In this document: positions 297 to 15,176 of the stretch, one piece after another
Numbering within the stretch: the stretch's first letter is position 1
Layout: every line of letters begins with the position of its first letter
Assembly: GCF_011045165.1 (NCBI RefSeq)
Contig: NZ_JAAKZI010000020.1
Location: 1-64,000 of the forward strand
Reading direction: 5' to 3'
Origin: Arthrobacter silviterrae
Lineage (GTDB): Bacteria; Actinomycetota; Actinomycetes; Actinomycetales; Micrococcaceae
DNA: 64,000 nt
Program-made: the position numbers and the translations under genes
The notes under the pieces: model-generated
What the model was told of the DNA's origin: nothing
The model's database searches: none
The model's input: only the letters and a program-made list of their open reading frames with translations

Positions 297-701
297 TGGA
301 TGTTGAATGATGGCGGAGCACCGATGGTCCCTGCCACTGCACGGTTGACCTGACTACGCTGAAATTCGCGCCGGAAGATGCCATTCATCAAATAATCTTA
401 CTGATCGTGCATATGATTTCATGATTCGAGATCGAAGTATTCTGTGGGTCAGGGTGGCTTATATAGTGGAAATCGCCGCGCAGACAGGCCCGCAACCACC
501 GTTGGGGGATGTTGTGCATTTGCACTACAGGAATACAGCCCGTGTGTATTTGCCACCAGTGCCGCCGGGACGGGCATGCAACCCGCCGGAGCACAACCGG
601 CATGCACCAACCAATACAGTTGCGCGGGAGATTGCCACCCGCAGACCGAGGGCCACCGCCGTCCCCATCCACCGTTCGACCAGGGGAAGGACTTCACCGT
701 C
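297..701 (+). promoter_or_regulatory. AT-rich leader upstream of gltB
   Basis: No convincing gene is visible here. The stretch 380-470 is markedly more AT-rich than its surroundings and holds a possible promoter, TTCTGT (440-445) and TATAGT (462-467) with a 16-base spacer. A short palindrome GTGCA-TT-TGCAC sits at 514-525. The gltB ribosome-binding site GGGGAAGG is at 683-690. The promoter call is weak. A long untranslated leader is inferred only from the distance to the start codon. Confidence 0.35.
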
Positions 702-3700
702 ATGACTCAGACTTCACCGCTCGCCCAGTCACCCTTCACGCGCTTTGCGCAGCTGCCCGCGCAGCAGGGGCTGTACCGGCCCGAGTCCGAAAAAGACGCC
801 TGCGGCCTGGCCATCGTCGCCACCTTGCGCGGCGAGCCCCGGCGTGACATTGTGCAAAGCGCCCTCGTGGCACTGCGCAACCTGGAGCACCGCGGCGCAG
901 TGGGCGCGGACGAAGGCACCGGCGACGGCGCCGGCATCCTCACACAGGTCCCCGATGCGTTTTTCCGCGCCGTGGTGGACTTTCCACTGCCCGCAGCCGG
1001 CAGCTACGCCGTCGGAACGGCCTTCCTCCCCACCGAGCCCAAGGACTTGGCAGCGACACGTGCCGGGCTGGAGGCGCTGGCCGAACGAGAAGGGCTGGAT
1101 GTCCTGGGCTGGCGCGAGGTGCCCATTGTGGCCGACCTGGTGGGGGCCAGCGCCCGGGCCTGCATGCCGCACTTCAGCCAGCTCTTTCTGGCGATCCGGC
1201 CCGGCAGCGAGGACGCGTCGAGAAAAGAAGTGAATGCGCTGGACGCAAAGGCCTTCCGCCTCCGCAAGCGCGCGCAGCACAAGTTCGGCGTGTACTTCCC
1301 CTCGCTGTCCTCCAAGACCCTTGTCTACAAGGGCATGCTGACCACCGCCCAGCTTGAACCGTTCTACCCCGACCTTTCGGATGCGCGCTTTGCCACCAAG
1401 CTGGCAGTGGTGCACTCGCGCTTCTCCACCAACACCTTCCCGTCATGGCCGCTGGCGCAGCCGTTCCGCACCATCGCCCACAACGGGGAAATCAACACGG
1501 TCAAGGGCAACCGCAACTGGATGCGGGCCCGCCAATCCACCATGTCCCACTCCCTGCTGGGCGACGCCCCTGAGGAACTGTTCCCGATCTGCACACCGGG
1601 GGCCTCCGACTCGGCATCCTTTGACGAAGTCGCGGAACTGCTGTGGCTGTCCGGCCGCCCCATCACCGAGGCCGTCATGATGATGATCCCGGAGGCGTGG
1701 GAAAACCACACCACCATGGACCCGGACCGCAGGGCCTTTTACGAATACCACTCCCTGATGATGGAGCCGTGGGACGGCCCGGCGGCCGTGTCCTTCACCG
1801 ACGGCACCCTGGTCGGAGCCACCCTGGACCGCAACGGCCTGCGCCCCTGCCGCTACTGGGTGACAGCGGACGGGCTGGTGGTCTTTGCCTCCGAAGTGGG
1901 CGTGCTGGACATCCCAGCGGAAAAGATCGTGGAAAAAGGCAGGGTGGCGCCGGGAAAGATGTTTGTTGTCGACACCGAGGCCGGCCGCCTGGTCCGCGAC
2001 GACGAGGTCAAGGCGCAGGCCGCCGCCAGCAGGCCCTGGGCCGACTGGGCCCGGGAAAACACCATCCGCCTCGCGGACCTGCCCGAGCGCGAGCACGTGG
2101 TCCACACCAGCGCCTCCGTCATCCACCGCCAGCGCACCTTCGGCTACACCACCGAGGAACTGAAAATCCTGCTCGGCCCCATGGCCCGCACCGGCGGCGA
2201 ACCCCTGGGCGCCATGGGCACCGACACGCCCGTCGCCGTGCTCTCCAAGCGCCCCCGCCTGCTCTTTGACTACTTTGTCCAGTCCTTTGCCCAGGTGACC
2301 AACCCGCCGCTGGACGCCATCCGCGAAGAACTGGTCACCTCGCTGAACACCGCCATCGGCCCGCAGGGCAACCTGCTCTCCCGCGCCAAGGTGGCCATGC
2401 CGCAGGTGGCCCTGACCTTCCCCGTCATCAACAATGACGAGCTCGCCAAGATCGCCAACATCGAAACCCCCCTGGCAGCCGACGGCACCGGCGGGGAGCG
2501 CATCGCCATGAAGGTGCGGGGCCTGTATAAGTTCGACGGCGGCGAGGCGGCCCTGCGCTCCCGGCTGACCGAAATCTGTGAGCAGGTTTCGGGGGCCATC
2601 AACAGGGGCGTGCAATATGTGGTGCTCTCGGACCGCGACTCCTCCGCTGCCTGGGCCCCGATCCCGTCCCTGCTGCTGCTCAGTGCCGTCCACCACCACC
2701 TGCTGCGCAGTGCCAACCGCACCAAGATCTCCCTGGTGGTGGAAGCCGGAGACGTCCGCGAGGTCCACCACGTTGCCGTCCTGATCGGCTTCGGCGCCGC
2801 GGCCGTCAACCCCTACCTCGCCATGGAATCCGTGGAGGAGCTGGTCCGCAGCGGCGACGTCGTGGGGGTCACCCCCGAACAATCCGTACACAACCTCATC
2901 AAGGGCCTGGGCAAGGGCGTCCTGAAGATCATGTCCAAGATGGGCATCTCCACCGTGGCCTCGTACTGCGGCGCCCAGACCTTCGAAGCGCTGGGACTGT
3001 CCCAGGAACTGGTCAACGACTACTTCACGGGCACCGTCTCCCAACTGGGAGGCGTGGGCCTGGACGTCATTGCCGCCGAGGTCACGGCCCGCCACACCCT
3101 GGCCTACCCCGTCGACGGCGTGGACGTGCCCCACCGCCCGCTGCTGGGCGGCGGCGAATACCAGTGGCGCCGCGACGGCGAACCGCACCTGTTCAACCCG
3201 GACACCGTGTTCCGACTGCAGCATGCCACCCGGGAACGCCGCTACGACATCTTCAAGAAATACACGCAGGGCATTGACGAGCAGGCCGGCAAGCTCATGA
3301 CCTTCCGCGGGCTGCTGAAGTTCCGCGACGGCCAGCGGCCACCGGTGCCGCTGGAGGAAGTGGAAGCAGTCAGCAGCATCGTCAAGCGCTTTTCCACCGG
3401 CGCCATGAGCTACGGCTCCATTTCCCAGGAAGCCCACGAGAACCTGGCCATTGCCATGAACCGGCTGGGCGCCAAGTCCAACACGGGCGAGGGCGGGGAG
3501 GACGTGGCCCGGCTGCTGGACCCGGAGCGCTGCTCCGCCATCAAGCAGGTGGCCTCCGGCCGCTTCGGCGTCACCAGCCTCTACCTGGCCAGCGCACAGG
3601 ACATCCAGATCAAGATGGCCCAGGGCGCCAAGCCCGGCGAGGGCGGGCAGCTCATGGCCAAAAAGGTCTACCCCTGGATCGCGGCCACCCGCCATTCGAC

Positions 3701-5315
3701 GCCCGGCGTCGGGCTGATTTCCCCGCCGCCGCACCATGACATCTACTCCATCGAGGACCTGGCCCAGCTGATCTACGACTGCAAGCGCGCCAACCCGGCC
3801 GCCCGGGTCCACGTCAAGCTCGTCTCCGAGATGGGGATCGGCACGGTCGCGAGCGGCGTGACCAAGGCCAAGGCCGACGTCGTGCTGGTTTCCGGGCACG
3901 ACGGCGGCACCGGCGCCAGCCCGCTGAACTCGCTCAAGCATGCCGGCATGCCGTGGGAACTGGGCCTCGCCGAGACCCAGCAGACGCTGCGCCTGAACGG
4001 GCTCCGCGACCGCGTGGTGGTGCAGGTGGACGGCCAGCTGAAAACCGGGCGCGACGTGGTGGTGGCTGCCCTGCTGGGTGCCGAGGAGTACGGCTTCGCC
4101 ACGGCCCCGCTGGTGGTTTCCGGCTGCGTCATGATGCGTGTGTGCCACCTGGACACCTGCCCCGTTGGCGTGGCCACGCAAAACCCGGAGCTGCGCCAGC
4201 GTTTCAGCGGCAAGCCGGAGTTTGTGGTCAACTTCTTTGAGTTCCTGGCCGAGGAGGTCAGGGAAATCCTGGCCGGGCTCGGGTTCCGCACGCTGGAGGA
4301 GGCCATCGGCCACGCGGACCTGCTGGACACGCGGGAAGCCGTGGACCACTGGAAAACGGCGGGCCTGGACCTTTCGCCCATCATGTCCGACGCCGGAGTG
4401 CCGGCAGGGACGCCGGTGCGCAACCTCACCACGCAAAACCATGAGCTGGACAAGCACTTCGACCAACAGCTGCTCACCATGGCGGCCGAGGCACTCAGCG
4501 ACCGCACGCCCGTCAAGATCAGCGTGCCGGTGGTCAACACCGACCGTTCCGTGGGCACGCTGCTGGGCTACCACGTCACGAAGGCGTTTGGCGTGAACGT
4601 GCTCGGGCCGGACACCATTGACGTCACCCTGACCGGCCAGGCCGGCCAGTCGCTGGGCGCGTTCATGCCGGCCGGCATCACACTGCGCCTCTTCGGCGAC
4701 GCCAACGACTACGTGGGCAAGGGCCTCTCCGGCGGGCGCATCACCGCCCAGCCGGACCGCGCCAGCTCCCTCGTGGCAGCCGATAACGTGATTGCCGGCA
4801 ATGTGATCGGTTACGGGGCCACCAGCGGGGAAATGTTCCTCCGCGGCCAGGTGGGCGAACGCTTCCTGGTCAGAAATTCCGGGGCCACCGCGGTCGTGGA
4901 AGGCATCGGCGACCACGGCTGCGAGTACATGACCGGCGGCCAGGCCCTCGTCATCGGGCCCACGGGACGCAACTTTGGCGCCGGCATGTCCGGCGGCACC
5001 GCCTATGTGCTGGACCTGGCCCGCAGCAACGTCAACACCACTGCCCTCGATTCGGGGGAGCTGTCCCTCATCCCGCTCGACGCCGAGGATGCAGACATTG
5101 TCCACGCGCTTTTGGCCCGGCACGTCGAGGAGACGGGCTCGGAGGTGGCCGCCGCGCTGCTGGCCGACTTCCCGGGCACGGTTGGGCGCCTGACAAAGGT
5201 CCTCCCGCGGGACTATGCAGCAGTTTTGGAAACCCGCTTGGCAGCAGCCGAGCTGGGCGAGGACCCCGACGGCGACGCCGTCTGGCACAAAATCTTGGAG
5301 GTAACCGGTGGCTGA
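702..5315 (+). CDS. gltB: Glutamate synthase (NADPH) large subunit
   Basis: Makes glutamate from glutamine and 2-oxoglutarate together with GltD. The protein is 1537 aa, normal for the alpha subunit. I start it at the ATG at 702, behind GGGGAAGG, although the frame is open further upstream. After a short propeptide, Cys34 in KDACGLAIV is the expected N-terminal nucleophile of the class II glutaminase domain (about 34-430). The central and FMN-binding synthase domains follow. Cys1142, Cys1148 and Cys1153 (C-x5-C-x4-C) fit the 3Fe-4S ligands. The C-terminal GXGXG beta-helix domain is intact. The stop overlaps the gltD start by 8 nt, which indicates translational coupling. Confidence 0.97.
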
Positions 5316-6762
5316 TCCCCGCGGTTTTTTGAAGAACCGGGAACGCATCACCCAGGCCAGGCGTCCCGTGCCGGTCCGCATCATGGACTGGAAGGAAGTG
5401 TACGAGAACCAGGACCACGAGGTGCTCAAGGGACAGGCCGGGCGGTGCATGGACTGCGGCGTGCCGTTCTGCCACCAGGGCTGCCCCCTGGGAAACCTGA
5501 TCCCGGAGTGGAATGACCTCACCTGGCGGGACAAGGGGGAGGAGGCAATCGAACGGCTGCATTCCACCAACAACTTCCCGGAATTCACCGGACGGCTGTG
5601 CCCGGCCCCGTGCGAGACCGCGTGCGTGCTGGGGATCAACCAGCCGGCTGTCACCATCAAGCAGGTGGAAGTTTCCATCATTGACGAGGCCTTCGCCCAG
5701 GACTGGGTGCACCCGCTCCCGCCGGCCAGGCTCACCGGCAAGACTGTCGCCGTCGTCGGTTCCGGCCCGGCCGGCATGGCCGCCGCCCAGCAGCTGACCC
5801 GCACCGGCCACACGGTGGCCGTGTACGAACGTGACGACAGGATCGGCGGGCTGCTGCGCTACGGCATCCCCGATTTCAAGCTGGAAAAGGACAAGCTCGA
5901 CAGGCGCCTGGAACAGATGAAGGCGGAGGGCACCCGCTTCCGCACCGGGGTGGAAGTGGGCAAGGACATCGGCTGGGACGAGCTGCGCCGCCGGTACGAC
6001 GCCGTCGTGGTGTGCACCGGTGCCACGGTGCCGCGGGACCTGCCCATCCCCGGCCGCCAGCTGGGCGGCGTCCACTTTGCCATGGAATACCTGGTGCAGT
6101 CCAACAAGGTGGTGGCCGGTGACACGGTGGCCGGCCAGATTGACGCCCGCGGCAAGCACGTGGTGATACTTGGCGGCGGCGACACCGGGGCGGACTGCCT
6201 CGGCACCGCCCACCGCCAGCAGGCTGCGTCCGTGACCACGCTCGCGATAGGCAAGCAGCCCCCCGTGGAACGCACCTCTGCCCAGCCGTGGCCCATGTTC
6301 CCGAACCTGTTCGAAGTGGCCAGCGCGCACGAAGAAGGCGGGGACCGCACCTACCTTGCCTCCACCGTGGAATTCCTCGGCGAGAACGGCCGGCTCACCG
6401 GGCTCAAGATAGCCGAAACCGAGTACGTGGACGGTCGCCGTGTGCCCAAGGTGGGCACGGAACGAATCATCCCTGCGGACCTGGTGTTCCTCTCGCTTGG
6501 TTTCACGGGCCCCGAAACGGCAGAGCTCACGCACCAGCTGCCGGTGGCGCTCAGCGCCCGGTCCACGGTGGAACGCGACGGCTACTACATGACCGCCAAG
6601 CCGGGCGTTTTCGCCGCCGGGGATGCCGGACGCGGGCAGTCGCTAATAGTCTGGGCCATCGCCGAAGGCCGTGCCTGCGCGGCTGCGGTGGACAAATTCC
6701 TCATGGGCGAGACATTCCTGCCCGCCCCCGTCTCACCCAGTGACTCCGCTATCAGTGTCTAG
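5308..6762 (+). CDS. gltD: Glutamate synthase (NADPH) small subunit
   Basis: The 484-aa beta subunit passes electrons from NADPH through FAD and iron-sulfur clusters to GltB. The N-terminal cysteine motifs [14 protein letters not shown] and CPAPCETAC supply the 4Fe-4S clusters. An FAD-binding Rossmann motif ([10 protein letters not shown]) lies near residue 150, a pyridine-nucleotide motif (GGGDTGADC) near residue 290, and the C-terminal FAD motif [11 protein letters not shown] near residue 430. The start is GTG at 5308, preceded at 5 nt by GGAGGT (5297-5302) inside the end of gltB. No terminator is obvious before pyk. Confidence 0.96.
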
Positions 6763-6831
6763 GGCCGACCCGCTAGGCTGGACGCAGGACACTAGATTTC
6801 CACTGTCAAACACACCACTTAGGTAGGTAAA

Positions 6832-8316
6832 TTGAGACGCGCAAAAATTGTGGCGACTTTTGGGCCGGCAATCGCCAGCTTTGAGAACACACTTGCGGTA
6901 CTGGATGCAGGGGTCAACGTGGCCCGCATGAACATGAGCCACGGCGACTACGCCGTGCACCAAATCACTTACGACAACGTCCGCAAGGCTTCCGAGCAGC
7001 TGGGCAAGACCGTGGCCATCATGGCCGACCTCCAGGGTCCGAAGATCCGCCTGGGCCGCTTCGAAAACGGCACCGGTTACGAACTGGCCGTGGGCGACGT
7101 CTTCACCATCACCACCGAGGACGTGCCCGGCACCAAGGACATCTGCTCCACCACGCTCAAGTCCCTGACGGAAGACGTCAAGCCCGGCGACATCCTGCTG
7201 ATCGATGACGGCAAGGTCTCCGTCCGCGCCACCGCCGTTGACGCCGTCAAGGTGGTCACAGAGGTGACGGTGCCCGGGAAGGTTTCCAACAACAAGGGCA
7301 TCAACCTGCCCGGCGTGGCCGTGAACGTCCCCGCCCTGAGCGAAAAAGATGAGGCGGACCTCCGCTGGGCCCTGGCCTGCGGCGTGGACCTGGTGGCCCT
7401 CTCCTTCGTGCGAGACGCGGCCGACATCACGCGCGTGCACGAGATCATGGACGAGGAAGGCCGCCGCGTGCCGGTCATCGCCAAGATCGAGAAGCCGCAG
7501 GCCGTTGACAACCTTGAGGCCATAGTTGATGCGTTTGACGCCATCATGGTGGCCCGCGGTGACCTGGGCGTGGAACTTCCCCTTGAGGACGTCCCGCTGG
7601 TGCAGAAGCGGTGCGTGGAAATTGCCCGCCGCTGGGCCAAGCCCGTCATTGTGGCCACCCAGGTGCTTGAATCCATGATCGAGAACCCGCGCCCCACCCG
7701 TGCCGAGGCCTCCGACTGCGCCAACGCCGTCCTGGACGGTGCGGACGCCGTCATGCTGTCCGGCGAAACCAGCGTTGGCGCATTCCCGATCGAAACTGTC
7801 AAGGTCATGGCCCGCATCATTGAGGCGGCCGAAAAGGACGGGCTCAAGCGCATCCCGCCGCTGGGCACCAACCCGAAGACCCGCGGCGGCGTCATCACGG
7901 CCGCTGCCGTGCAGATCGCCACGCAGCTTGACGCGAAGTACATTGCCACGTTCACGCAGTCCGGCGACTCCGCACGCCGCCTGTCCCGCCTGCGTCCGGC
8001 ACACCCGATCTTCGGGTTCACGCCCGTGGAGCAGGTCCGCAACCAGCTGGCGCTGACCTGGGGCGTGGAGCCCGTGCTGGTGCCCACCGTGCCGCACACC
8101 GACGCCATGACGGCCCAGGTGGACCGCAAGCTGCTGGAAAAGGGACTGGTGGAGGACGGCGACCTCGTCGTCATCGCCGCCGGTTCCCCTCCCGGACAGT
8201 CCGGCACCACCAACCTCGTCAAGGTCCACCGTGTCGGGGACGTCGCCGACCTGGGCCTGGCCGAGTCCGGCGCCAACAACAACCGGGAAAAAGTTGGCCC
8301 CTGGCCCACCAAGTAA
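6832..8316 (+). CDS. pyk: Pyruvate kinase
   Basis: Converts phosphoenolpyruvate and ADP to pyruvate and ATP, the last step of glycolysis. The 494-aa length is typical. The start is TTG at 6832, read MRRAKIVATFGPA, behind AGGTAGG. The N-terminal catalytic loop (NMSHGDY), the metal-binding active-site segment MVARGDLGVELP and the C-terminal allosteric domain with TQSGDSARRLSR are all present. It is followed by a strong hairpin at 8341-8373, so it is probably the last gene of its transcript. Confidence 0.96.
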   Translation: MRRAKIVATFGPAIASFENTLAVLDAGVNVARMNMSHGDYAVHQITYDNVRKASEQLGKTVAIMADLQGPKIRLGRFENGTGYELAVGDVFTITTEDVPGTKDICSTTLKSLTEDVKPGDILLIDDGKVSVRATAVDAVKVVTEVTVPGKVSNNKGINLPGVAVNVPALSEKDEADLRWALACGVDLVALSFVRDAADITRVHEIMDEEGRRVPVIAKIEKPQAVDNLEAIVDAFDAIMVARGDLGVELPLEDVPLVQKRCVEIARRWAKPVIVATQVLESMIENPRPTRAEASDCANAVLDGADAVMLSGETSVGAFPIETVKVMARIIEAAEKDGLKRIPPLGTNPKTRGGVITAAAVQIATQLDAKYIATFTQSGDSARRLSRLRPAHPIFGFTPVEQVRNQLALTWGVEPVLVPTVPHTDAMTAQVDRKLLEKGLVEDGDLVVIAAGSPPGQSGTTNLVKVHRVGDVADLGLAESGANNNREKVGPWPTK

Positions 8317-8340
8317 GCTGAGCCAGCCATCCCCAAAGCA

Positions 8341-8380
8341 CGACGGCGGCACCCATGGCGGGTGCCGCCGTCGCGCTTTA
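8341..8380 (+). terminator. Rho-independent-type terminator after pyk
   Basis: Perfect 14-bp inverted repeat, CGACGGCGGCACCC (8341-8354) and GGGTGCCGCCGTCG (8360-8373), with a 5-nt loop, followed by CGCTTTA. It begins 24 nt after the pyk stop. The same stem recurs at 28065 and, in a variant form, at 10433. Confidence 0.85.
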
Positions 8381-8384
8381 ACCG

Positions 8385-8421
8385 GTGGTCGAGCAGCGAG
8401 CCCTGCGAGCGCGTCGAGACC
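8385..8421. repeat. REP-like intergenic element GGTCGAG...CGAGACC
   Basis: Starts TGGTCGAGC and ends GTCGAGACC, with a GCGAG-rich centre, directly after the pyk terminator. A related, longer element occupies 10477-10553 and a short piece, GGTCGAGACAC, lies near 11493. Imperfect palindromes of this sort in intergenic positions suggest a dispersed repeat family. Family membership would need a genome-wide count. Confidence 0.5.
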
Positions 8422-8553
8422 CCGTCCGGCGGCCGAAGTTATCCACAGGCACCCCAAAATTCCGGACTTTGATCTGCCGTGATGGGCTACTGTTTCCACC
8501 ATCCCCGGAAGCGGAGTGCCGGGGATCCTTAGTGGAAACTCAGGCCGGGGGCG

Positions 8554-10428
8554 ATGGACATGCGGGTCGGAAAATTGATCGTGGGAGCGTGCCTGGCTTG
8601 TGCCGGGTTGCTGGCAGCGCTGGCGCCGGCGGCCGTTGCCGTCCCGGGTGAGCAGGGGGCCGCGGTAGAGGTGGTGGAGCCGGGCCCGGCCCCCGTAGCC
8701 TTGAAGGCGGGGCCCGACGGGAAGAGTTTTTGGGAGCTGACGGTGAAGGGCGGGGGAGCCTACATCGCTTCCTGGGAGCGCTCAACCGGGATCTGGGCTA
8801 CACCTGAAGAAGCCGGGGCAGCGTTGACTGGGATGTACGACTGCCGGAACAAGGCGGTCATGAAGTTCGTCGACCAATTCCCCACTTACCAGGCGTTCAA
8901 CGCTTCCCCGGGAGTCAAGGATGAGGCCGGCAAGGTGTCGTTCGTGGATCCCGCCACGGTCAAGGCGATGGAGAAGTGCCTGAAGGATTCGTCCATCAGC
9001 TCGGACCAGGTCAAATACGTGAAGGAGAAGACAACGGCGGGAAAGGCGACCGGAACGGTGGCCATCCAGATTCCGGCCGCGCTGACAGGGCCCGGCACCC
9101 ACGAGCTGTTTATCGCTAAATACGCCCTGCTGGCCAGCGGCAACCCTGCTTGTCCGAGTAAAACCTGGGCGCCCGGTCCGGACACGATGGGTGGGGCGGT
9201 GGGTGGCATGTGCAACCCCTCGCTCCAGGACATCAAAAAATTCACTGTGACGATCCCGCGCGAGGCTTCGGCAACTGTGCTGGGCGGCCCGGTTGCCGCG
9301 GCGGGCACGTGGTTCGAACCCAGCGCCTACAGCAACGCGCGGCCGCTGGACGTGGGTGCAACATCAGGAACTGTCGGCGCAACTGTGGCAGGCCTGTGGC
9401 CGGCGGCCGTTCCGGCGCTGGTGCTGGGCGTGGGCCTGGCCCTGCTGCTGGCCGTTCCGACTGCCCTGCTGTCAGCCGTGGCCGGCAGGCGGACGGGCCG
9501 CCTGGCGGGCGCAGTCCGCATCGTGGTGCCCGTGGCGGGGCCGCCTGTTGGCGGAGTGTCACGGCGCCGTTGGTGGAGCACCCGCACGCTGGGCATGGTG
9601 CACGGCCCGCTCGCGTTCCTGGTCCTCGTTGCCTGTTCGGCACTGGCCGCCGTCGGGCAACCCGGATTCGGCTGGAATGGTGGATCCGCGCGCCTGGCGT
9701 TGTCCTTCCTGGCGGCGTTCCTGCTGCTGAACTATGGATCCATGGTTTTCCGGTGGGCCATTGCTCGCCGCCACCGCCGCGGCAGTTTCCCCAGGGTCGC
9801 CGCCCGGCCCATCTACGTGGTGGTGCTGCTGGCCTCCCTGGCCGCGGCACGGGTTGTTGGCCTCGAACCTGCCCTCGTCTTTGGCGCAGTCCTCGCCATC
9901 GACTACAGCCTCAACACGGAGGAAGCAGGTCCCCGCAGGCCGGCGCTGGCTGCAATTGCGGGCAACCTCTTCTTGGCCGTGATGGGCTTCGCCGCCTGGG
10001 CCGGTTACAGCTTCCTTGCCGCCAACCACGTTGAAACATTCATCCGGTGGGGCGAGATCCAGCCGGACAGGGTGGCTGCCGTCAACGATGCAGCCGGGAT
10101 GGTGACGGTCGCAGCGGGGGAGTTCCTGGCCGTCATCGCCACCGTGGCCATTGCGGCCCTGCCCGTCACGTTGTTGCCGTTCGCTCCTTTTGAGGGGGCG
10201 CTACTGTGGGCATGGCGCCGGGGTGCCTGGCTACTCACGTACGCAGTTGCCGCTGCCGTCTTCAGTTTCGTGCTGGTGCCGTGGCCCGGATCCGTGGGAG
10301 CCATGGAAGGTCCCATTAATGCATGGCTTGGGCTGCATGCCGGCTACGCCGTCCTGGCCGGAGTGTTGTGGGCCATGATGGTGCTCCCGGTCCGGGGAAG
10401 GGGCGTGCCGTCCCCTGACCCCAGCTAA
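8554..10428 (+). CDS. Exported multi-pass membrane protein of unknown function
   Basis: The 624-aa product has a signal peptide at about 1-30 (hydrophobic core LIVGACLACAGLLAAL, then AVAVPGEQG). An extracytoplasmic domain of roughly 240 residues follows, with cysteines in MYDCRNK, KCLKD, PACPSK and MCNPS that could form disulfides. The remainder has about eight hydrophobic helices, with a conserved-looking LPFAPFEGALLWAW segment near the end. I do not recognise a family. The start is the ATG at 8554 behind GGCCGGGGG; the ATG at 8560 is an alternative. It is monocistronic between two hairpins. Confidence 0.8.
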   Translation: MDMRVGKLIVGACLACAGLLAALAPAAVAVPGEQGAAVEVVEPGPAPVALKAGPDGKSFWELTVKGGGAYIASWERSTGIWATPEEAGAALTGMYDCRNKAVMKFVDQFPTYQAFNASPGVKDEAGKVSFVDPATVKAMEKCLKDSSISSDQVKYVKEKTTAGKATGTVAIQIPAALTGPGTHELFIAKYALLASGNPACPSKTWAPGPDTMGGAVGGMCNPSLQDIKKFTVTIPREASATVLGGPVAAAGTWFEPSAYSNARPLDVGATSGTVGATVAGLWPAAVPALVLGVGLALLLAVPTALLSAVAGRRTGRLAGAVRIVVPVAGPPVGGVSRRRWWSTRTLGMVHGPLAFLVLVACSALAAVGQPGFGWNGGSARLALSFLAAFLLLNYGSMVFRWAIARRHRRGSFPRVAARPIYVVVLLASLAAARVVGLEPALVFGAVLAIDYSLNTEEAGPRRPALAAIAGNLFLAVMGFAAWAGYSFLAANHVETFIRWGEIQPDRVAAVNDAAGMVTVAAGEFLAVIATVAIAALPVTLLPFAPFEGALLWAWRRGAWLLTYAVAAAVFSFVLVPWPGSVGAMEGPINAWLGLHAGYAVLAGVLWAMMVLPVRGRGVPSPDPS

Positions 10429-10432
10429 AGCG

Positions 10433-10465
10433 CGACGCCGGCACCCAAGGCGGGCGCCGGCGTCG
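10433..10465 (+). terminator. Terminator hairpin after the 8554-10428 gene
   Basis: Inverted repeat CGACGCCGGC (10433-10442) and GCCGGCGTCG (10456-10465) beginning 5 nt after the stop codon, followed by TTGGTT. It is a sequence variant of the stem used after pyk. Confidence 0.75.
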
Positions 10466-10476
10466 TTGGTTAACGC

Positions 10477-10553
10477 TGGTCGAGCCTGGGCCCACGGCCG
10501 CGAGGGTCCCGCTGCGAGCTTGCGAGCAGTGGGAGCGGCTGGGGAGCGAGACC
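10477..10553. repeat. Long REP-like element between convergent genes
   Basis: Begins TGGTCGAGCC and ends GCGAGACC, framing GC-rich inner palindromes such as the GCTGCGAGCTTGCGAGCAG stretch. It fills the gap between the membrane-protein terminator and the end of pdtaR, which is transcribed towards it. It resembles the shorter element at 8385. Confidence 0.45.
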
Positions 10554-10556
10554 GGC

Positions 10557-11159
10557 TCAGTTGACCTGGTTGATGATGGTTTCAGCCACCTCGCGCATGC
10601 TGAGGCGGCGGTCCATGGAGGTTTTTTGGATCCAGCGGAAGGCCTCGGGTTCGGTCAGGCCCATTTTGGTGGTGAGGAGGCTCTTGGCGCGCTCCACAAG
10701 CTTGCGGGTGGCGAATTGCTCCTGGAGGTCGGTGACTTCGTTCTCCAATGCCTTGATTTCCTCGTGGCGTGAGAGGGCGATCTCAAGTGCCGGGATGAGG
10801 TCGGCGGGGGTGAACGGCTTGACCACGTAGGCCATGGCGCCGGCGTCGCGCGCGCGCTCCACCAATTCCTTTTGGCTAAAGGCAGTCAGGAGGACCACGG
10901 GGGCGATGCGGGCCTTGACAATCTGCTCGGCGGCGGTGATGCCGTCCATGACGGGCATCTTGACGTCCATGAGGACCAGGTCCGGCTTGAGTTCCTTGGC
11001 GAGTTCCACAGCCTTTTCACCGTTGTCGGCTTCGCCAACCACGTCATAGCCTTCGCCGCGCAGGATCTCCATGATGTCGAGACGGATCAGGGTCTCGTCC
11101 TCCGCGACGATGACGCGGCGGGCGGGGGTGGTGCTGGTGGATTCCGAATTTTCGGACAC
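10557..11159 (-). CDS. pdtaR: ANTAR-type response regulator (PdtaR family)
   Basis: A 200-aa two-domain regulator that binds RNA to antiterminate transcription when phosphorylated by a PdtaS-type kinase. The receiver domain (about 14-130) has the acidic pair AEDE, phospho-acceptor Asp65 in LVLMDVKMP and Lys in YVVKPF. After a coiled linker comes an ANTAR domain (about 138-198) with AKSLLTTKMGLTEPEAF and the IQKTSMDRRLSMREVA segment. I place the start at the GTG at 11159 because AAGGAG lies just upstream. The frame stays open further but without a better site. No kinase partner is next to it. Confidence 0.93.
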   Translation of the reverse strand: MSENSESTSTTPARRVIVAEDETLIRLDIMEILRGEGYDVVGEADNGEKAVELAKELKPDLVLMDVKMPVMDGITAAEQIVKARIAPVVLLTAFSQKELVERARDAGAMAYVVKPFTPADLIPALEIALSRHEEIKALENEVTDLQEQFATRKLVERAKSLLTTKMGLTEPEAFRWIQKTSMDRRLSMREVAETIINQVN

Positions 11160-11344: not shown

Positions 11345-11425
11345 GCCCAAGTGGCGGAATGGCAGACGCGCTGCACTCAAAATGCAGTATCGAGAGGTGT
11401 GTGGGTTCGAGTCCCACCTTGGGCA
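11345..11425 (+). tRNA. tRNA-Leu (anticodon CAA)
   Basis: The acceptor arms GCCCAAG (11345-11351) and CTTGGGC (11418-11424) pair perfectly. The anticodon stem CTGCA/TGCAG closes a 7-base loop CTCAAAA, giving anticodon CAA (codon UUG). A long variable arm, as expected for tRNA-Leu, precedes the T arm GTGGGTTCGAGTCCCAC. CCA is not encoded. Its 3' end served as an integration site (see the 26-bp repeat). Confidence 0.95.
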
Positions 11426-11429
11426 CATT
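11404..11429. repeat. Attachment-site copy 1 (tRNA-Leu 3' end)
   Basis: The 26 bases starting GGTTCGAGTCCCACC and ending GGGCACATT are repeated exactly at 12830-12855. This copy includes the T arm and acceptor 3' strand of the tRNA. Duplication of a tRNA 3' end is the footprint of tyrosine-recombinase integration; that interpretation rests on family knowledge. Confidence 0.85.
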
Positions 11430-11440
11430 TGTTCGAAGAA

Positions 11441-11469
11441 TGACCTCCTGGAAACAGGGGGTCATTTTT
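11441..11469 (+). terminator. Terminator downstream of tRNA-Leu
   Basis: Hairpin TGACCTCCTG (11441-11450) with CAGGGGGTCA (11455-11464), a GAAA tetraloop and one G-U pair, followed by a TTTTT run (11465-11469). It lies inside the inserted segment, so it probably arrived with the element. Confidence 0.85.
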
Positions 11470-11628
11470 CTTATCCGGACCTGTTGTTCGAGCTGGTCGA
11501 GACACTTTGTCGGGGCCCGGCCATGTCCTTGTTCGATCCAACTAGGCAGCGCACTTGGTCTCCGACGCAGATTTAGTTGATCGTCCCCGGCAGCTCCCTT
11601 TCTGAATGTTGCGAGGAGTTCGTCTCCG

Positions 11629-12009
11629 TCACTGTATCCATGGTCCGTCGGGGCAATTGCCACCGAACTTGGGGGTGCCTTTCTTCTCAGTAGACGGAAG
11701 CCCACCCAACACCGGTGTACGACAGATGCCAAGGTCGAGGCCTTTTGCACCAACCACCAGGACACGCCGTGGGCCATGGCGGTCCCTGTGGGCTGCTGCG
11801 TAAATTTCGGCCACGATCAAGTCGACGTCCGTCTCGTCGGCATAGCTGGCGTAGATGTCTGCGGTGGGACGGTTGCCAATGCCCTGCCGGATCAGTGCTG
11901 CTCAGCCAAGCAACTTGATGTAGCCATTTGTGCCGCGTGCCACCAGCCGTCTGGTGAGCTCATGGAGGAGAGTCGGGATTTCGGCGCCGGTGAGCTCGCC
12001 GGCGCTCAT
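11629..12009 (-). pseudogene. Broken nucleotidyltransferase (AbiEii/DUF6036-like toxin remnant)
   Basis: The ATG at 12009 overlaps the stop of the XRE gene as ATGA, the arrangement of a coupled toxin-antitoxin operon. The reading begins MSAGELTGAEIPTLL, reaches YIKLLG, then hits TGA at codon 36 (11904-11902). In the same frame it continues AALIRQGIGNRPTADIY and VDLIVAEIY to a stop at 11629. With GGA instead of TGA it would read LLGGAALI...TADI, which resembles the glycine motif and first Asp of a nucleotidyltransferase. The second Asp of the DxD pair is also lost (Tyr at codon 53). After about codon 85 the sequence is no longer recognisable. The family call is inferred from motif spacing and context. 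Confidence 0.6.
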
Positions 12010-12626
12010 GCGGTAGCCAGGCTGCGTTCGCGGATGAAGACGTTCATTGCCGCAAGCTCGTGAGGTGTTTCAGACTTTGTGAGTTCCTTCATGGGTTCGC
12101 GGACGGTCCGGTAGGACTCGGCCGGCATCCACGCCTCGTTGAGGGGTTGGATGCGTTTGGTCCAATCTGGGGCGGGTTGGTTGAGGCGGTGTGCGGTGTA
12201 GTTGGTGATTCCGGCCAGGGCTGCGGACCATTGGGGGTCATTGAGTTGCGGGCTGCGTTGGATTAACGGCCTGCCGGCTTTCAGGGATGCGCTGGCGTAG
12301 TCGGCGAGCATCTTGGTGGCGAATTCAAAGTCCCTCTTCGCGAGAAGGTCTGTGAAGGTGGCTGCGTAGTCGCGCCGTTCCGGGTCGTGGTCCATGCCGA
12401 CGGGGATGGGGGTTGTCGTGACTAGCGATAGGCCGAGCGCTGCGAACACCGCCAAAGTCTTGCCGAGTTCAGCGCGCTCGTGGCCCGATTCGAGGTCGAT
12501 GAGGAATTTCCGCGAAACAGCGGCGGCGTCAGCCAAGGCTTGTTGAGTAAGGCCCTGGCCTATTCGTTGGCGGCGGATCAATGCACCGGCCGCGGCCGGT
12601 GTGTCTATGGTGTTCTCAAATGTCAT
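12006..12626 (-). CDS. XRE-family regulator, probable antitoxin
   Basis: A 206-aa protein with an N-terminal helix-turn-helix (about 15-70: IRRQRIGQGLTQQALADA, then AAVSRKFLIDLESG). Its C-terminal half (about 90-206) resembles regulators paired with AbiEii/DUF6036-type nucleotidyltransferases. The start is the ATG at 12626 behind GGGAAGGG. An 18-bp palindrome 27 nt upstream fits autoregulation. It is the first gene of a two-gene unit whose second member is broken, so it may now be an orphan. It lies between the two tRNA-derived repeats, so it was horizontally acquired. Confidence 0.75.
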   Translation of the reverse strand: MTFENTIDTPAAAGALIRRQRIGQGLTQQALADAAAVSRKFLIDLESGHERAELGKTLAVFAALGLSLVTTTPIPVGMDHDPERRDYAATFTDLLAKRDFEFATKMLADYASASLKAGRPLIQRSPQLNDPQWSAALAGITNYTAHRLNQPAPDWTKRIQPLNEAWMPAESYRTVREPMKELTKSETPHELAAMNVFIRERSLATA

Positions 12627-12652
12627 GGCCAAATCCCTTCCCTCATCCATTG

Positions 12653-12670
12653 TGTCACCGAGCGGTGACA
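12653..12670. promoter_or_regulatory. Palindromic operator of the XRE gene
   Basis: TGTCACCG-AG-CGGTGACA is a perfect inverted repeat with 8-base arms and a 2-base centre, located 27 nt upstream of the XRE start codon. Such a site is typical for an autoregulating HTH dimer. No promoter boxes are assigned. Confidence 0.7.
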
Positions 12671-12829
12671 TCCGCATCTCCATGTCTGAAGACGTAGAGA
12701 ATAGTGGTTCCATTGCGGACTGTTCCCGCCGGGAACACATGTCCCTCGGGACGGGCCCGGACTGCGTCGTACTGGGCCGTACTTCCGCAGAAACTCGTGG
12801 CTTCCCAGTGTTTGCAAGGGTTGAAGTCT

Positions 12830-12855
12830 GGTTCGAGTCCCACCTTGGGCACATT
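12830..12855. repeat. Attachment-site copy 2
   Basis: An exact 26-base copy of the tRNA-Leu 3' end at 11404-11429, here preceded by unrelated sequence, so it is not a functional tRNA. It marks the right boundary of a 1.4-kb inserted segment. The terminator at 12856 follows directly and was probably the original terminator of the tRNA gene before insertion. Confidence 0.85.
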
Positions 12856-12880
12856 AAACCCCCTGAACTCAGGGGGTTTT
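12856..12880 (+). terminator. Terminator beside attachment copy 2
   Basis: Perfect 11-bp arms AAACCCCCTGA (12856-12866) and TCAGGGGGTTT (12869-12879) with a 2-nt centre, then T. It starts immediately after the repeated tRNA end, the position expected for the native tRNA-Leu terminator displaced by the insertion. Confidence 0.85.
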
Positions 12881-12891
12881 CGTGTTTAAGC

Positions 12892-12919
12892 GTTGACACG
12901 ATGTTGACACCCGTTGACC
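12892..12919. repeat. Three phased GTTGAC direct repeats
   Basis: GTTGACAC (12892), GTTGACAC (12903) and GTTGACC (12913) are spaced 11 and 10 bases apart, one helical turn each, on the outer side of attachment copy 2. This could be a cluster of protein-binding sites, for example recombinase arm sites or a regulator site. It is near no intact gene, so its function is unknown. Confidence 0.45.
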
Positions 12920-13208
12920 GGTTGCTCCCCTGAGAGGCAATGTTGGGGCGCATCCTGAAAGCCCGACATCGAAGTTGCTGTTGGCTTGAGACGGCCCCGT
13001 GCTGACGAATTCGGGGAGAACTTCTCCTCCACCCCGATCATCGTGTGCCGGAGCCTCAACGCCGGTTAGCTCCATGTCGGGGCTCACCAGCGCCACTAGC
13101 CTCGGAAGTACTGGACGCCCCCAGCGTGGCCGTTTCTTGATCTGGCATGAGCAGGACCCTTCAACCATGTCCCCTTGAAACGAAATCCCGCGGAAAGTGC
13201 CTTTCGTT
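12920..13208. other. Intergenic stretch with no recognisable gene
   Basis: I see no open frame with recognisable domain content, no tRNA and no clear hairpin. The segment lies between the GTTGAC repeats and a degraded XRE fragment, so it is probably part of the same scar of decayed acquired DNA. Confidence 0.4.
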
Positions 13209-13329
13209 TCAACAATGCCTACGTTCAAGCAGCGGCCGCCCTGCTTTCAGCAATGCGCTGGCGTAGCCGCTTCGTGGTCGATGGGGAATTTCCGTGAAAC
13301 CTTGGCCGCATCAGCCAAAGTTTGTCGGC
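13209..13329 (-). pseudogene. Internally deleted second copy of the XRE gene
   Basis: Read on the minus strand, one frame gives TLADAAKVSRKFPIDHE, matching ALADAAAVSRKFLIDLE of the intact XRE protein. The next frame gives GYASALLKAGRPLLERR, matching DYASASLKAGRPLIQRS. The roughly 60 residues between these blocks in the intact protein are missing, and the frames differ. It is therefore a remnant of a homologous gene with an internal deletion, lying outside the tRNA-repeat bracket. Confidence 0.7.
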
Positions 13330-13451: not shown

Positions 13452-13640
13452 GTGGCGAACTCAGGATCCGGTGACTCGGTGGTGGACCGGGTGGTCCGCC
13501 TCATTGCCGCATTCCCGGAGGGGGCTGGCAGCCTCCAGCTGTCGGAGCTGGCCCGCCGGGCGGGGCTGCCACTCACCACTGCGCATCGCCTGGTCCAGCA
13601 ACTCGCCGGGCACGGTCTGGTGGAGGCACTGCGCGCCAGC
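13452..13640 (+). pseudogene. IclR-family regulator, N-terminal fragment
   Basis: From the GTG at 13452 the frame encodes a clear IclR winged-helix domain: VVDRVVRLIAAFPEGAGS, then LSELARRAGLPLTTAHRLV and QQLAGHGLVE. After LVEALR the similarity stops and the frame runs into unrelated low-quality sequence. The effector-binding domain of about 180 residues is absent. It is a truncated, frameshifted remnant. Confidence 0.6.
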
Positions 13641-13771
13641 TCGGCGAGCTCCACTCAGTGGTTTCCTCCCGGCACGCACGGGCATACCTTGCCGAGTCTT
13701 ACACGGGATGGCCGGGCGAGCCATAAGGGCCCTCAACCAAGGGTCCCGAATCACCTTCTGGCGGCCCGGCC

Positions 13772-13846
13772 ATGCTGGTGGACCCAACGACTGTCGTGGT
13801 CAACGTACTGGGCAATTGCGTTCCCACATTAGTCGTGGGCACATGA
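13772..13846 (+). pseudogene. Possible C-terminal scrap of a dicarboxylate symporter
   Basis: The frame starting MLVDPTTVVVNVLGNCV and ending LVVGT-stop resembles the C-terminal segment of DctA/GltP-type symporters, where a T-x-x-x-N-x-x-G-N-x-x-x-T pattern is common. Only about 25 residues are involved, so this is a weak call. It adds to the picture of decayed DNA between the island and the protease gene. Confidence 0.25.
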
Positions 13847-14198: not shown

Positions 14199-15176
14199 GT
14201 GAAAGAAAATTCGGAGATGTCCCAGCCCGGGCTTGAAACTGAGGATGTCATGGACTCATATTCCCGGTCCGTCATTGCGGTTGCCGAGGCGGTGGCGCCC
14301 CACGTGGTCGCCGTCGAGGTGTCAGGCACAGGCCGCAACGGCCGCACGCGCACGGGTGCGGGCTCCGCCGTCGTCTTTACCGAGGATGGCTACATGCTCA
14401 CGAATGCCCACGTGGTGGCCGGCGCCAGCAGCGGGTGGGCAGCCTTCGCCGACGGCACGGGAACCGACATTGAAATCAGGGGAGCGGACGTACTTTCCGA
14501 CCTGGCCGTGATCCGCGGCCTGTCCCACATGCATGCACCGGCCCGCCTCGGCGACGCAGAGGGGCTGCGGGTGGGCCAGCTGGTCATTGCCGTGGGCAAC
14601 CCGCTGGGCCTGGCCGGTTCGGTGACGGCCGGCGTGGTCAGTGGCCTGGGACGGTCCATGCCCACGGCCCTCGGACGGAACCGGCGGGTGATTGAGGACG
14701 TCATCCAAACCGATGCGGCACTGAACCCCGGCAATTCGGGCGGGGCGCTGGCCGACGCCCAGGGGCGGGTGGTTGGCATTAATACCGCTGTCGCAGGTGC
14801 AGGGCTGGGCCTGGCTGTTCCAATCAACGCCACCACCCGCAGGATCATCTCGGCCCTCATGACGGACGGGAGGGTCCGCCGCGCCTACGTGGGCCTGGTC
14901 AGCTCGCCGGTCCGGCTCAACGAAACTCTGGCCGTCCGGACGGGGCAGCAGGAGGGCCTGCGCGTGGTGGATGTCATGGCCGGCTCCCCGGCGGACCGGG
15001 CAGGGCTGAAGTCCGGGGACCTGGTGCTCACCGTTGCCCAGCGCCCCGTTTCAAGTGCGCAGAGCCTGCAAAAGCAGTTGTTTGCCGAGGCCATCGGTGC
15101 GCCGCTGGCAGTGACGGTGCTGCGAAACGGGGCCATGGTGGATGTGATTGCGGTCCCGGTGGAGACGACCGAGTAG
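14199..15176 (+). CDS. Trypsin-like serine protease with PDZ domain (HtrA/DegP type)
   Basis: A 325-aa protein with an intact HtrA catalytic triad: His71 (LTNAHVVAG), Asp101 (LSDLAVIRG) and Ser180 (NPGNSGGAL). A PDZ domain spans about 235-320, with AGSPADRAGLKSGD as its core. The usual N-terminal membrane anchor or signal peptide is missing: the first 30 residues are acidic and polar. It may therefore act in the cytoplasm, or the true start could lie elsewhere in the decayed upstream region. The start is the GTG at 14199 behind CGGGAGG. It faces pcaR convergently with no obvious terminator. Confidence 0.9.
   Translation: MKENSEMSQPGLETEDVMDSYSRSVIAVAEAVAPHVVAVEVSGTGRNGRTRTGAGSAVVFTEDGYMLTNAHVVAGASSGWAAFADGTGTDIEIRGADVLSDLAVIRGLSHMHAPARLGDAEGLRVGQLVIAVGNPLGLAGSVTAGVVSGLGRSMPTALGRNRRVIEDVIQTDAALNPGNSGGALADAQGRVVGINTAVAGAGLGLAVPINATTRRIISALMTDGRVRRAYVGLVSSPVRLNETLAVRTGQQEGLRVVDVMAGSPADRAGLKSGDLVLTVAQRPVSSAQSLQKQLFAEAIGAPLAVTVLRNGAMVDVIAVPVETTE

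Follow-up and report, generated by a model that had tools for sequence, protein, structure and literature searches.

A small integrase-less segment behind tRNA-Leu(CAA) in Arthrobacter silviterrae resembles units of tandem stacks in related bacteria

The units of integrons carry toxin-antitoxin-like pairs, and tycheposons are found in stacked and integrase-less forms. Islands arrayed in tandem at RNA genes are already known, some with an integration module and some lacking one (PMC3146451, PMC5704250, PMC10872708). The ssrA islands of Dehalococcoides follow one another behind an RNA gene, within 100 kb, and are marked by short direct repeats of the 3' end of that gene. An integration module is present in 16 of the 31, and the 15 without one were suggested to be possible cis-mobilizable elements (PMC3146451). 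Such elements (CIMEs) are defined in the relevant section of PMC5704250 as decay products of integrative and conjugative or integrative and mobilizable elements (ICEs, IMEs) that lack integration and transfer genes and keep the attachment sites attL and attR; tandem elements are described there as generally decayed. The additive flexible genomic islands of Methylopumilus, as excerpted from PMC10872708, are associated with 20-bp repeats of tRNA-Lys and range from 330 bp to 42 kb. Here we describe a 1426-bp segment behind tRNA-Leu(CAA) of Arthrobacter silviterrae, located within a 64,000-nucleotide stretch of DNA (contig NZ_JAAKZI010000020.1, positions 1 to 64,000; hereafter the window), and compare it with the islands found behind the same tRNA gene in relatives.

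The segment, referred to as unit 1, is almost certainly one unit of a system of stacks at tRNA-Leu(CAA). Our preferred reading, to which we assign a probability of roughly 0.55, is that unit 1 is an integrase-less unit of a tandem stack that was inserted in trans and later underwent an internal deletion. An initial annotation had proposed that the segment was integrated site-specifically at the tRNA and bounded by exact 26-bp repeats. A repeat search of the window recovered these repeats (GGTTCGAGTCCCACCTTGGGCACATT, 11404-11429 and 12830-12855) at 100% identity and a spacing of 1426, and the 26-mer occurs twice in the whole genome (4,287,170 bases, 106 contigs) when up to three mismatches are permitted. 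The reversed 26-mer, used as a control pattern, had no match in the same 4,287,170-base genome. Among the genomes examined, no relative without the XRE gene carried both copies at this spacing, nor was the repeat common across the genome. As is expected of a genomic island, the 3' end of the target is repeated at both borders and the tRNA-Leu(CAA) gene is intact; ARAGORN found no other tRNA in the window. The features of the locus are as follows, where L and R denote the left and right ends of a unit and att the attachment site.

11345..11426 (ARAGORN) or 11345-11425 (Rfam), forward strand: tRNA-Leu(CAA), the integration target, whose 3' end is the attachment core
11404..11429, forward strand: att copy 1, the last 22 tRNA bases plus CATT (repeat and genome pattern searches)
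11427..11728, forward strand: unit 1 L end, class II subfamily B, apparently noncoding, with a terminator-like hairpin at 11439-11466
11803..12009, reverse strand: remnant of a DUF6036 nucleotidyltransferase, codons 1-69 of 186 (tblastn, 68% identity)
12006..12626, reverse strand: XRE-family regulator, 206 aa, open frame (85% identity to genome G021)
12706..12852, forward strand: unit 1 R end, with palindrome TGTTCCCGCCGGGAACA at 12721-12737, a spacer, the TCCCAGTGTTTGCAAGGG motif from 12803, and att
12830..12855, forward strand: att copy 2 (repeat and genome pattern searches)
12853..13103, forward strand: unit 2 L end, class II subfamily B, with a hairpin at 12856-12880 and GTTGACA repeats
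13219..13325, reverse strand: second XRE remnant of the same family, in unit 2, internally deleted (repeats D1/D2, weak tblastn)

Unit 1 therefore consists of an L end, a cut DUF6036 nucleotidyltransferase gene, an intact XRE gene and an R end, with no integrase. Its L end matches the corresponding profile over 11428-11717 (E 7e-64, the window being among the profile's own seeds) and is 79.6% identical over 11626-11728 to an L end of G004. The R end matches a covariance model at E 1.4e-32, the window being one of the model's 37 sequences, and positions 11804-12853 are 83% identical to the distal end of the first unit of G021. The regulator and broken nucleotidyltransferase of the initial annotation were both recovered, the former as an open frame and the latter as codons 1-69 only; its relative in G021 is 186 aa long and matches PF19502 (DUF6036). 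As the gene is cut at codon 69, unit 1 has also lost internal DNA. The XRE protein scores 22.4 bits against HTH_3, just under the cut-off of 23, and its dN/dS of 0.16 against G021 (0.08-0.19 across six relatives) points to a gene that evolves under constraint. The absence of an integrase also held: a search with the integrase of related islands, run at E<=0.05 on the part of the window from 10145 onward, gave neither a match nor an integrase remnant, and contig C20 contains none of the genome's 19 PF00589 matches. No member of the integrase clade described below was found in the genome of A. silviterrae, where the best relative is 26% identical, so unit 1 is probably now stranded.

The window contains two stacked units, with unit 1 followed by a decayed unit 2 from 12830. 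T-tailed hairpins can be read behind both att copies (11439-11466 and 12856-12880). The second had been interpreted as the original tRNA terminator; it instead starts a 248-bp L end of unit 2 (profile match 12856-13103, E 3e-45, also a profile seed) and, lying within that end, is not a virgin terminator. Left ends of class II type bring their own hairpin. Genome G014 does have sequence similar to that following copy 2 directly behind its tRNA, as anticipated for an empty site, with 89% identity over 108 bp to the unit 2 L end. That sequence is itself the L end of another unit. With a full class II L end following its tRNA, G014 was rejected as a virgin empty site and shows only the junction without unit 1. 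The XRE remnant of unit 2 is marked by direct repeats D1 (81%) and D2 (76%) and by a weak tblastn match to XRE amino acids 27-60 (E 0.024); neither a full R end nor a third att was recognised further on in the window. A short gene at 13452-13832 with an IclR-type HTH (Pfam E 6e-14), apparently truncated judging by its length, separates unit 2 from a trypsin-like protease that has a PDZ domain (14199-15176).

Stacks of such units were found behind the same tRNA in relatives. Stretches downstream of the tRNA were taken from 20 of 22 same-genus genomes, several of which contained extra copies of the tRNA 3' end, with a short sequence common to them just before each copy. The tRNA 3' end pattern was then run on 28 genomes (23 of the genus, including that of A. 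silviterrae, and five others with XRE relatives) and matched in all 28, the tRNA genes themselves being among the matches. There are 10 forward att copies in G017 (966,756 to 1,207,645), seven over 87 kb in G388 and six over 66 kb in G005. The 11 R ends of G017, each followed by an L end (one of them matched over 102 bp only), lie in one orientation up to 242 kb from the tRNA and behind a single integrase. Overall, the stacks run head-to-tail, reach about 240 kb at most and have an att copy separating neighbouring units. The 46 mapped units range from 1256 bp to 69 kb with a median of 11.5 kb, sizes that lean small because they come from chosen stacks, among them those of G402, G404, G328, G316 and G430, which were picked for closely spaced R ends. 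Most begin with a class II L end and no integrase: the left ends comprise 31 of class II, 3 with an integrase and 12 that are unrecognised.

Two relatives exemplify the first position of the stack. In G015, an open-frame tyrosine integrase (PF00589) lies directly behind the tRNA and the next att copy is 11.4 kb on, while the first unit of G021 has no integrase; its cargo matches SngB, transposase-like genes are present, and a nucleotidyltransferase-XRE pair lies at the distal att. The integrase-less G021 cargo (L052, tRNA-relative positions 474-7436) encodes a helicase-like protein, a BrxC/D-type ATPase (SngB E 2e-176) and a third large protein, and by these similarities is probably a Shango defence system. 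The integrase-bearing unit of G015 (L046, tRNA-relative positions 1908-10677) encodes a protein that looks by eye like a large ATPase, together with a TIR protein (PADLOC TIR-TM, E 2.6e-43).

The integrases of this system are mostly linked to the tRNA. With the G015 integrase as the query and a clade cut-off of E<=1e-90, 395 genomes of the family yielded 43 matches in 40 genomes. The cognate integrase for this site, not found in A. silviterrae, is thus present in relatives: 37 of the 43 matches are directly behind tRNA-Leu(CAA), including every one of the 36 that share 53% identity or more with the query; G398, G348, G121, G357 and G228 are among the 37, and two placements (G004, G005) were judged by position. 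Internal stops interrupt six of the 37 (G379, G170, G154, G004, G357, G005). In the 28 genomes, an open-frame integrase adjoins the tRNA in seven, and remnants are found elsewhere in G005, G010, G019 and G388; G013, G015, G017 and G178 have open-frame integrases at the tRNA. The integrase matches PF00589, Phage_int_M and Phage_int_SAM_3. A gene of the excisionase type HTH_17 comes after the integrase in G013 (E 1.8e-11) and, below cut-off, in G017. Together with the repeated tRNA 3' end, the conserved ends seen in relatives and the G014 junction, these same-tRNA integrases bear out the proposed site-specific integration.

Exclusive placement at tRNA-Leu(CAA) was considered and failed once all 43 matches had been located, since six lie elsewhere or lack an RNA gene. 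One is behind tmRNA (G114:C11, L217) and one beside tRNA-Ala (G292, L221), and no RNA gene was present within the flank examined for the two of G427 and that of G409:C12. A more distant integrase, 38% identical, is behind tRNA-Ser (G013:C131, L222). The positions of these distant integrases suggest that related elements may use other RNA genes. The sixth match, in G204:C3 (L219), does not adjoin the tRNA: two att copies at 1383-3281 surround this integrase, which shares 45% identity with the G015 enzyme, and the unit so formed is apparently little more than an integrase gene. In addition, the broken integrase gene at the tRNA of G004 encloses three adjacent tyrosine recombinase genes in the opposite orientation (C1:1250712-1253186), resembling a recombinase-in-trio element.

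A typical R end consists of a palindrome, a spacer and the tRNA 3' end. At E<=1e-15, the covariance model detected R ends in 91 of 395 genomes and 8 of 32 genera; some of its 37 sequences came from the same 395 genomes, so matches in those genomes are not independent. At E<=0.01 the model matches 394 of 395 genomes, and we take most of the weak matches to be the tRNA itself and left them out of the counts. G010:C2 was excluded from the R-end profile. The palindrome is mostly GTGTNNACA-N-TGTNNACAC or TGTTCCC-N-GGGAACA and ends about 95 bp before att. Its halves covary, with 93.6% of cells paired and 41 cells changed on both sides. None of 500 shuffles reached the observed both-sided changes or covariation score, and sliding the partner abolished the signal; two of the five measures did not exceed the shuffles (both-side-changed pairs 456/500, further pair types 340/500). 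We read the palindrome, from this pattern, as a putative two-fold protein site with several specificities; its types include GG, TG, GC, GT and TCC.

Left ends fall into two classes. In class I, the integrase elements, att is followed by two direct 9-mer copies about 21 bp apart and then by the integrase start; these 9-mers are of the same sort as that of the R palindrome. Class II ends comprise a hairpin and a conserved, apparently noncoding stretch of about 260 bp, in three subfamilies: the first part is common to both classes and is followed by a different conserved stretch of about 200 bp. An inverted motif, TCATS-N14-26-RYRTGA, is present in 32 of 45 full L ends. The mapped stacks contain 48 class II L ends longer than 100 bp; an R end adjoins 39 of these, and another 7 follow the tRNA directly. 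The possibility that a class II L end is a degraded integrase start was rejected, as class II profiles match no more than 72 bp at the left ends of open-frame integrases. At 11439-11520 of the window, and in other left ends with a hairpin starting TTCGAAGAATGACC, a GGTCGAGCTTGTCGAGAC-like stretch takes the place of the 9-mer repeats; it seems to resemble a dispersed repeat of these genomes. In subfamily C left ends (L093, L095, L103, L104, L112), another 9-mer palindrome lies some 370 bp from att and is often of the same type as the R end of the unit.

Gene pairs are recurrent beside the R ends. Genes or fragments of the XRE-nucleotidyltransferase or RHH-Doc pairs are within 2 kb of 23 of 78 distinct R ends, of which 70 have at least 1.7 kb upstream; the count takes in only R matches that span most of the profile. 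XRE or nucleotidyltransferase accounts for 14 and RHH or Doc for 11, with both kinds at two. Some of these matches are fragments, those at L116 are 1.5-1.9 kb away, and one double case reflects the XRE gene of a neighbouring unit. In the mapped stacks, 36 of 40 aligned pair pieces have an R end no more than 2 kb downstream; of the four exceptions, three share a single place in G404. The second pair is recognised by Pfam as Fic/DOC (E 4e-15) and RHH_1 (E 7e-5). A 1256-bp unit of G017 contains just an L end, open RHH and Doc frames, and an R end; this and the window unit are the two tiny units seen. The XRE and DUF6036 genes are adjacent as a conserved pair in relatives, and in the window the second gene is cut. 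They are possibly a toxin-antitoxin pair. No mention of 'DUF6036' was found in the open-licence PMC literature searched. In Shewanella, a HipAB toxin-antitoxin system is reported to stabilise a composite island (PMC8978831).

These features place the locus beside several described systems. Like the Dehalococcoides islands, the stacks are in tandem with repeats of an RNA gene 3' end and include units with and without an integration module. In contrast, the cited sections describe a serine recombinase (DsiB) in a six-gene module, whereas the integrase here is a tyrosine integrase mostly at the tRNA; the integrase-less units here also have a distinct conserved L end, a covarying R palindrome and gene pairs at R ends (PMC3146451). 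A serine recombinase in each unit was considered and was not seen in G017, G388 or G274. The stacks share with additive islands the recurring tRNA 3' end repeats, variable cargo and broad size range, while the cited passages of PMC10872708 do not mention conserved arms, a position for the integrase or gene pairs. They also resemble, in outline, integrons and clusters of attC sites lacking integron-integrases (CALINs), with an anchored integrase, units trailing one way and integrase-less arrays (PMC11389934). Toxin-antitoxin-like pairs in units are a further common point. They differ in that the sites seen here combine the 3' end of a tRNA with linear motifs and a palindrome, beside arm repeats that look double-stranded, and in that mapped units measure 1.3-69 kb; the integrase is recognised by its PF00589, Phage_int_M and Phage_int_SAM_3 matches. 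As in tycheposons, a tyrosine recombinase lies beside a tRNA with cargo; those elements, in the passages cited, belong to a different phylum (PMC10872708, PMC11389934). The combination of a tRNA-linked integrase, a separate integrase-less L end, typed palindromes and R-end pairs in Micrococcaceae did not turn up in the searches of open-licence PMC literature, nor did Arthrobacter, genomic island, tRNA-Leu and integrase appear together there (subscription journals and preprints lie outside this scope). Judged by title and opening of the abstract, none of the papers listed by a looser search dealt with these stacks.

Under the preferred reading, the tyrosine integrase of a resident or incoming class I element at tRNA-Leu(CAA) would have recombined the att of the excised unit with the tRNA 3' end, so that unit 1 landed between the tRNA and the older unit 2. 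Such an insertion would copy the last 22-26 tRNA bases and bring a new terminator. Insertions at the tRNA would also push older units outward, where displaced integrases would decay. The cargo of unit 1 would have included the XRE-nucleotidyltransferase pair beside the R end, and an internal deletion would then have removed whatever DNA separated the L end from codon 69 of the nucleotidyltransferase. Conserved ends, one-way stacks and integrases mostly at the tRNA are observed; we infer the insertion of class II units by an integrase in trans. Arm-repeat types also speak for this reading: of 24 testable units, 16 have an R type that recurs at their L end, against 8.7 expected (p 0.0006, in a test devised after the pattern had been seen). 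The test began from 37 neighbour pairs including the window unit; 13 of them lacked any recognised repeat or palindrome and were dropped, and a few of the 'units' it used proved on later mapping to cross a decayed boundary. For pairs on either side of an att, the raw count of agreement in type is 11 of 22.

Several observations weigh against this reading, in addition to the late design of that test. As the window L end has no tested arm-repeat type, the window unit falls outside the 24. Twelve of the 46 mapped units have no recognised L end, and two class II L ends (G404:5375, G178:17813) have neither a recognised R end nor the tRNA beside them. Movement of an integrase-less unit was not observed. 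Among the genomes compared, one per species, no two have a whole unit in common; whole-unit sharing, sought as proof of movement, failed, the best pair sharing 47% of a unit with the window unit set aside. The six integrases away from the tRNA lower the odds for mobilisation in trans. In G204, an open-frame integrase is located at an internal att copy with a further att 1.9 kb on, from which it follows that integrase units do become buried in stacks. Likewise, three class II L ends of G005 (L037, L099, L101) are directly followed by 5'-truncated integrase remnants, which start at integrase residues 117, 176 and 156 and fit decay from integrase elements.

The last two points lend themselves to a second explanation, which we place rather below even odds: unit 1 may be a CIME-like stump of an autonomous island that came in with its own integrase, later lost integrase and cargo, and kept attL and attR, the class II end being a secondary or alternative left end. 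The segment has no integration genes, retains both att sites and stands in tandem with a related element at one target gene, as do CIMEs in the cited section of PMC5704250. The nucleotidyltransferase cut at codon 69, the 4-30 kb sizes of other mapped XRE units and the integrase remnants away from the tRNA at G388:2033426, G010:C34 and G019:C77 would also be accounted for. On the other hand, a conserved class II stretch of about 200 bp that recurs is not an obvious repeated product of class I decay, and the 1256-bp RHH-Doc unit of G017 shows that tiny two-ended units exist. CIMEs are defined by descent from an ICE or IME; truncation of the nucleotidyltransferase may fit such derivation by loss, but the left end of the window unit is unlike that of the integrase elements. 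The initial annotation had offered mobilisation in trans or the stump of a larger element as alternatives, and each is partly true: the L end is of the type found in units without an intact integrase, and the cut gene records internal loss.

It is much less likely that class II units are an autonomous family with another recombinase that escaped recognition. The 12 unrecognised left ends would allow for this, as would one PF00239 match inside the mapped stack of G425 (2225238-2225642) and a partial one at 2437013, which is inside only if the stack extends to its integrase at 2.498 Mb. Against it, PF00589 finds three kinds of gene in the stacks of 12 genomes: the integrase at the head, broken copies in G004 and G005, and the recombinase group within the broken G004 integrase. 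Between the first and last att of G017 there is no PF00589 match beyond the head integrase and no PF00239 match, although two more PF00589 matches are found 2-4 kb past the last att; PF00239 is likewise absent inside the G388 and G274 stacks. Among the matches listed, the largest shared gene clusters within 2.4 kb past left ends (up to 4 genes each) are the integrase and a transposase. That the tRNA 3' end was copied by tandem duplication or illegitimate recombination, and that no mobile island is involved, is scarcely credible: the repeat itself is all that speaks for it, and it is contradicted by inner flanks that at both copies are element ends recurring across genera (the 91 genomes include model sources).

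If units of the preferred kind do move in trans, a broader interpretation may tentatively be offered, with more doubt than confidence. The stacks may constitute an integron-like tRNA system in Micrococcaceae, in which a tyrosine integrase beside tRNA-Leu(CAA), acting in trans, would insert and remove integrase-less cassettes of 1.3 kb to tens of kb with dedicated L and R ends, several palindromic types would match each cassette to its integrase, toxin-antitoxin-like gene pairs at the right ends would promote retention, and the window unit would be a minimal, stranded example. The six off-tRNA integrases lower the odds of this interpretation too.

Long stretches of variable genes, with defence-like cargo such as that of G021 (SngB match) and G015 (TIR), are stacked behind one tRNA in these soil bacteria. 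If units with dedicated ends are moved in trans, they would represent gene capture in the manner of cassettes but without an integron, and the boundaries of units, the matching of their types and the addiction-like pairs could be tested from sequence alone. The mini-unit of A. silviterrae indicates how few parts suffice to mark a unit of a stack, and it is a candidate for a cassette moved by the enzyme of another element.

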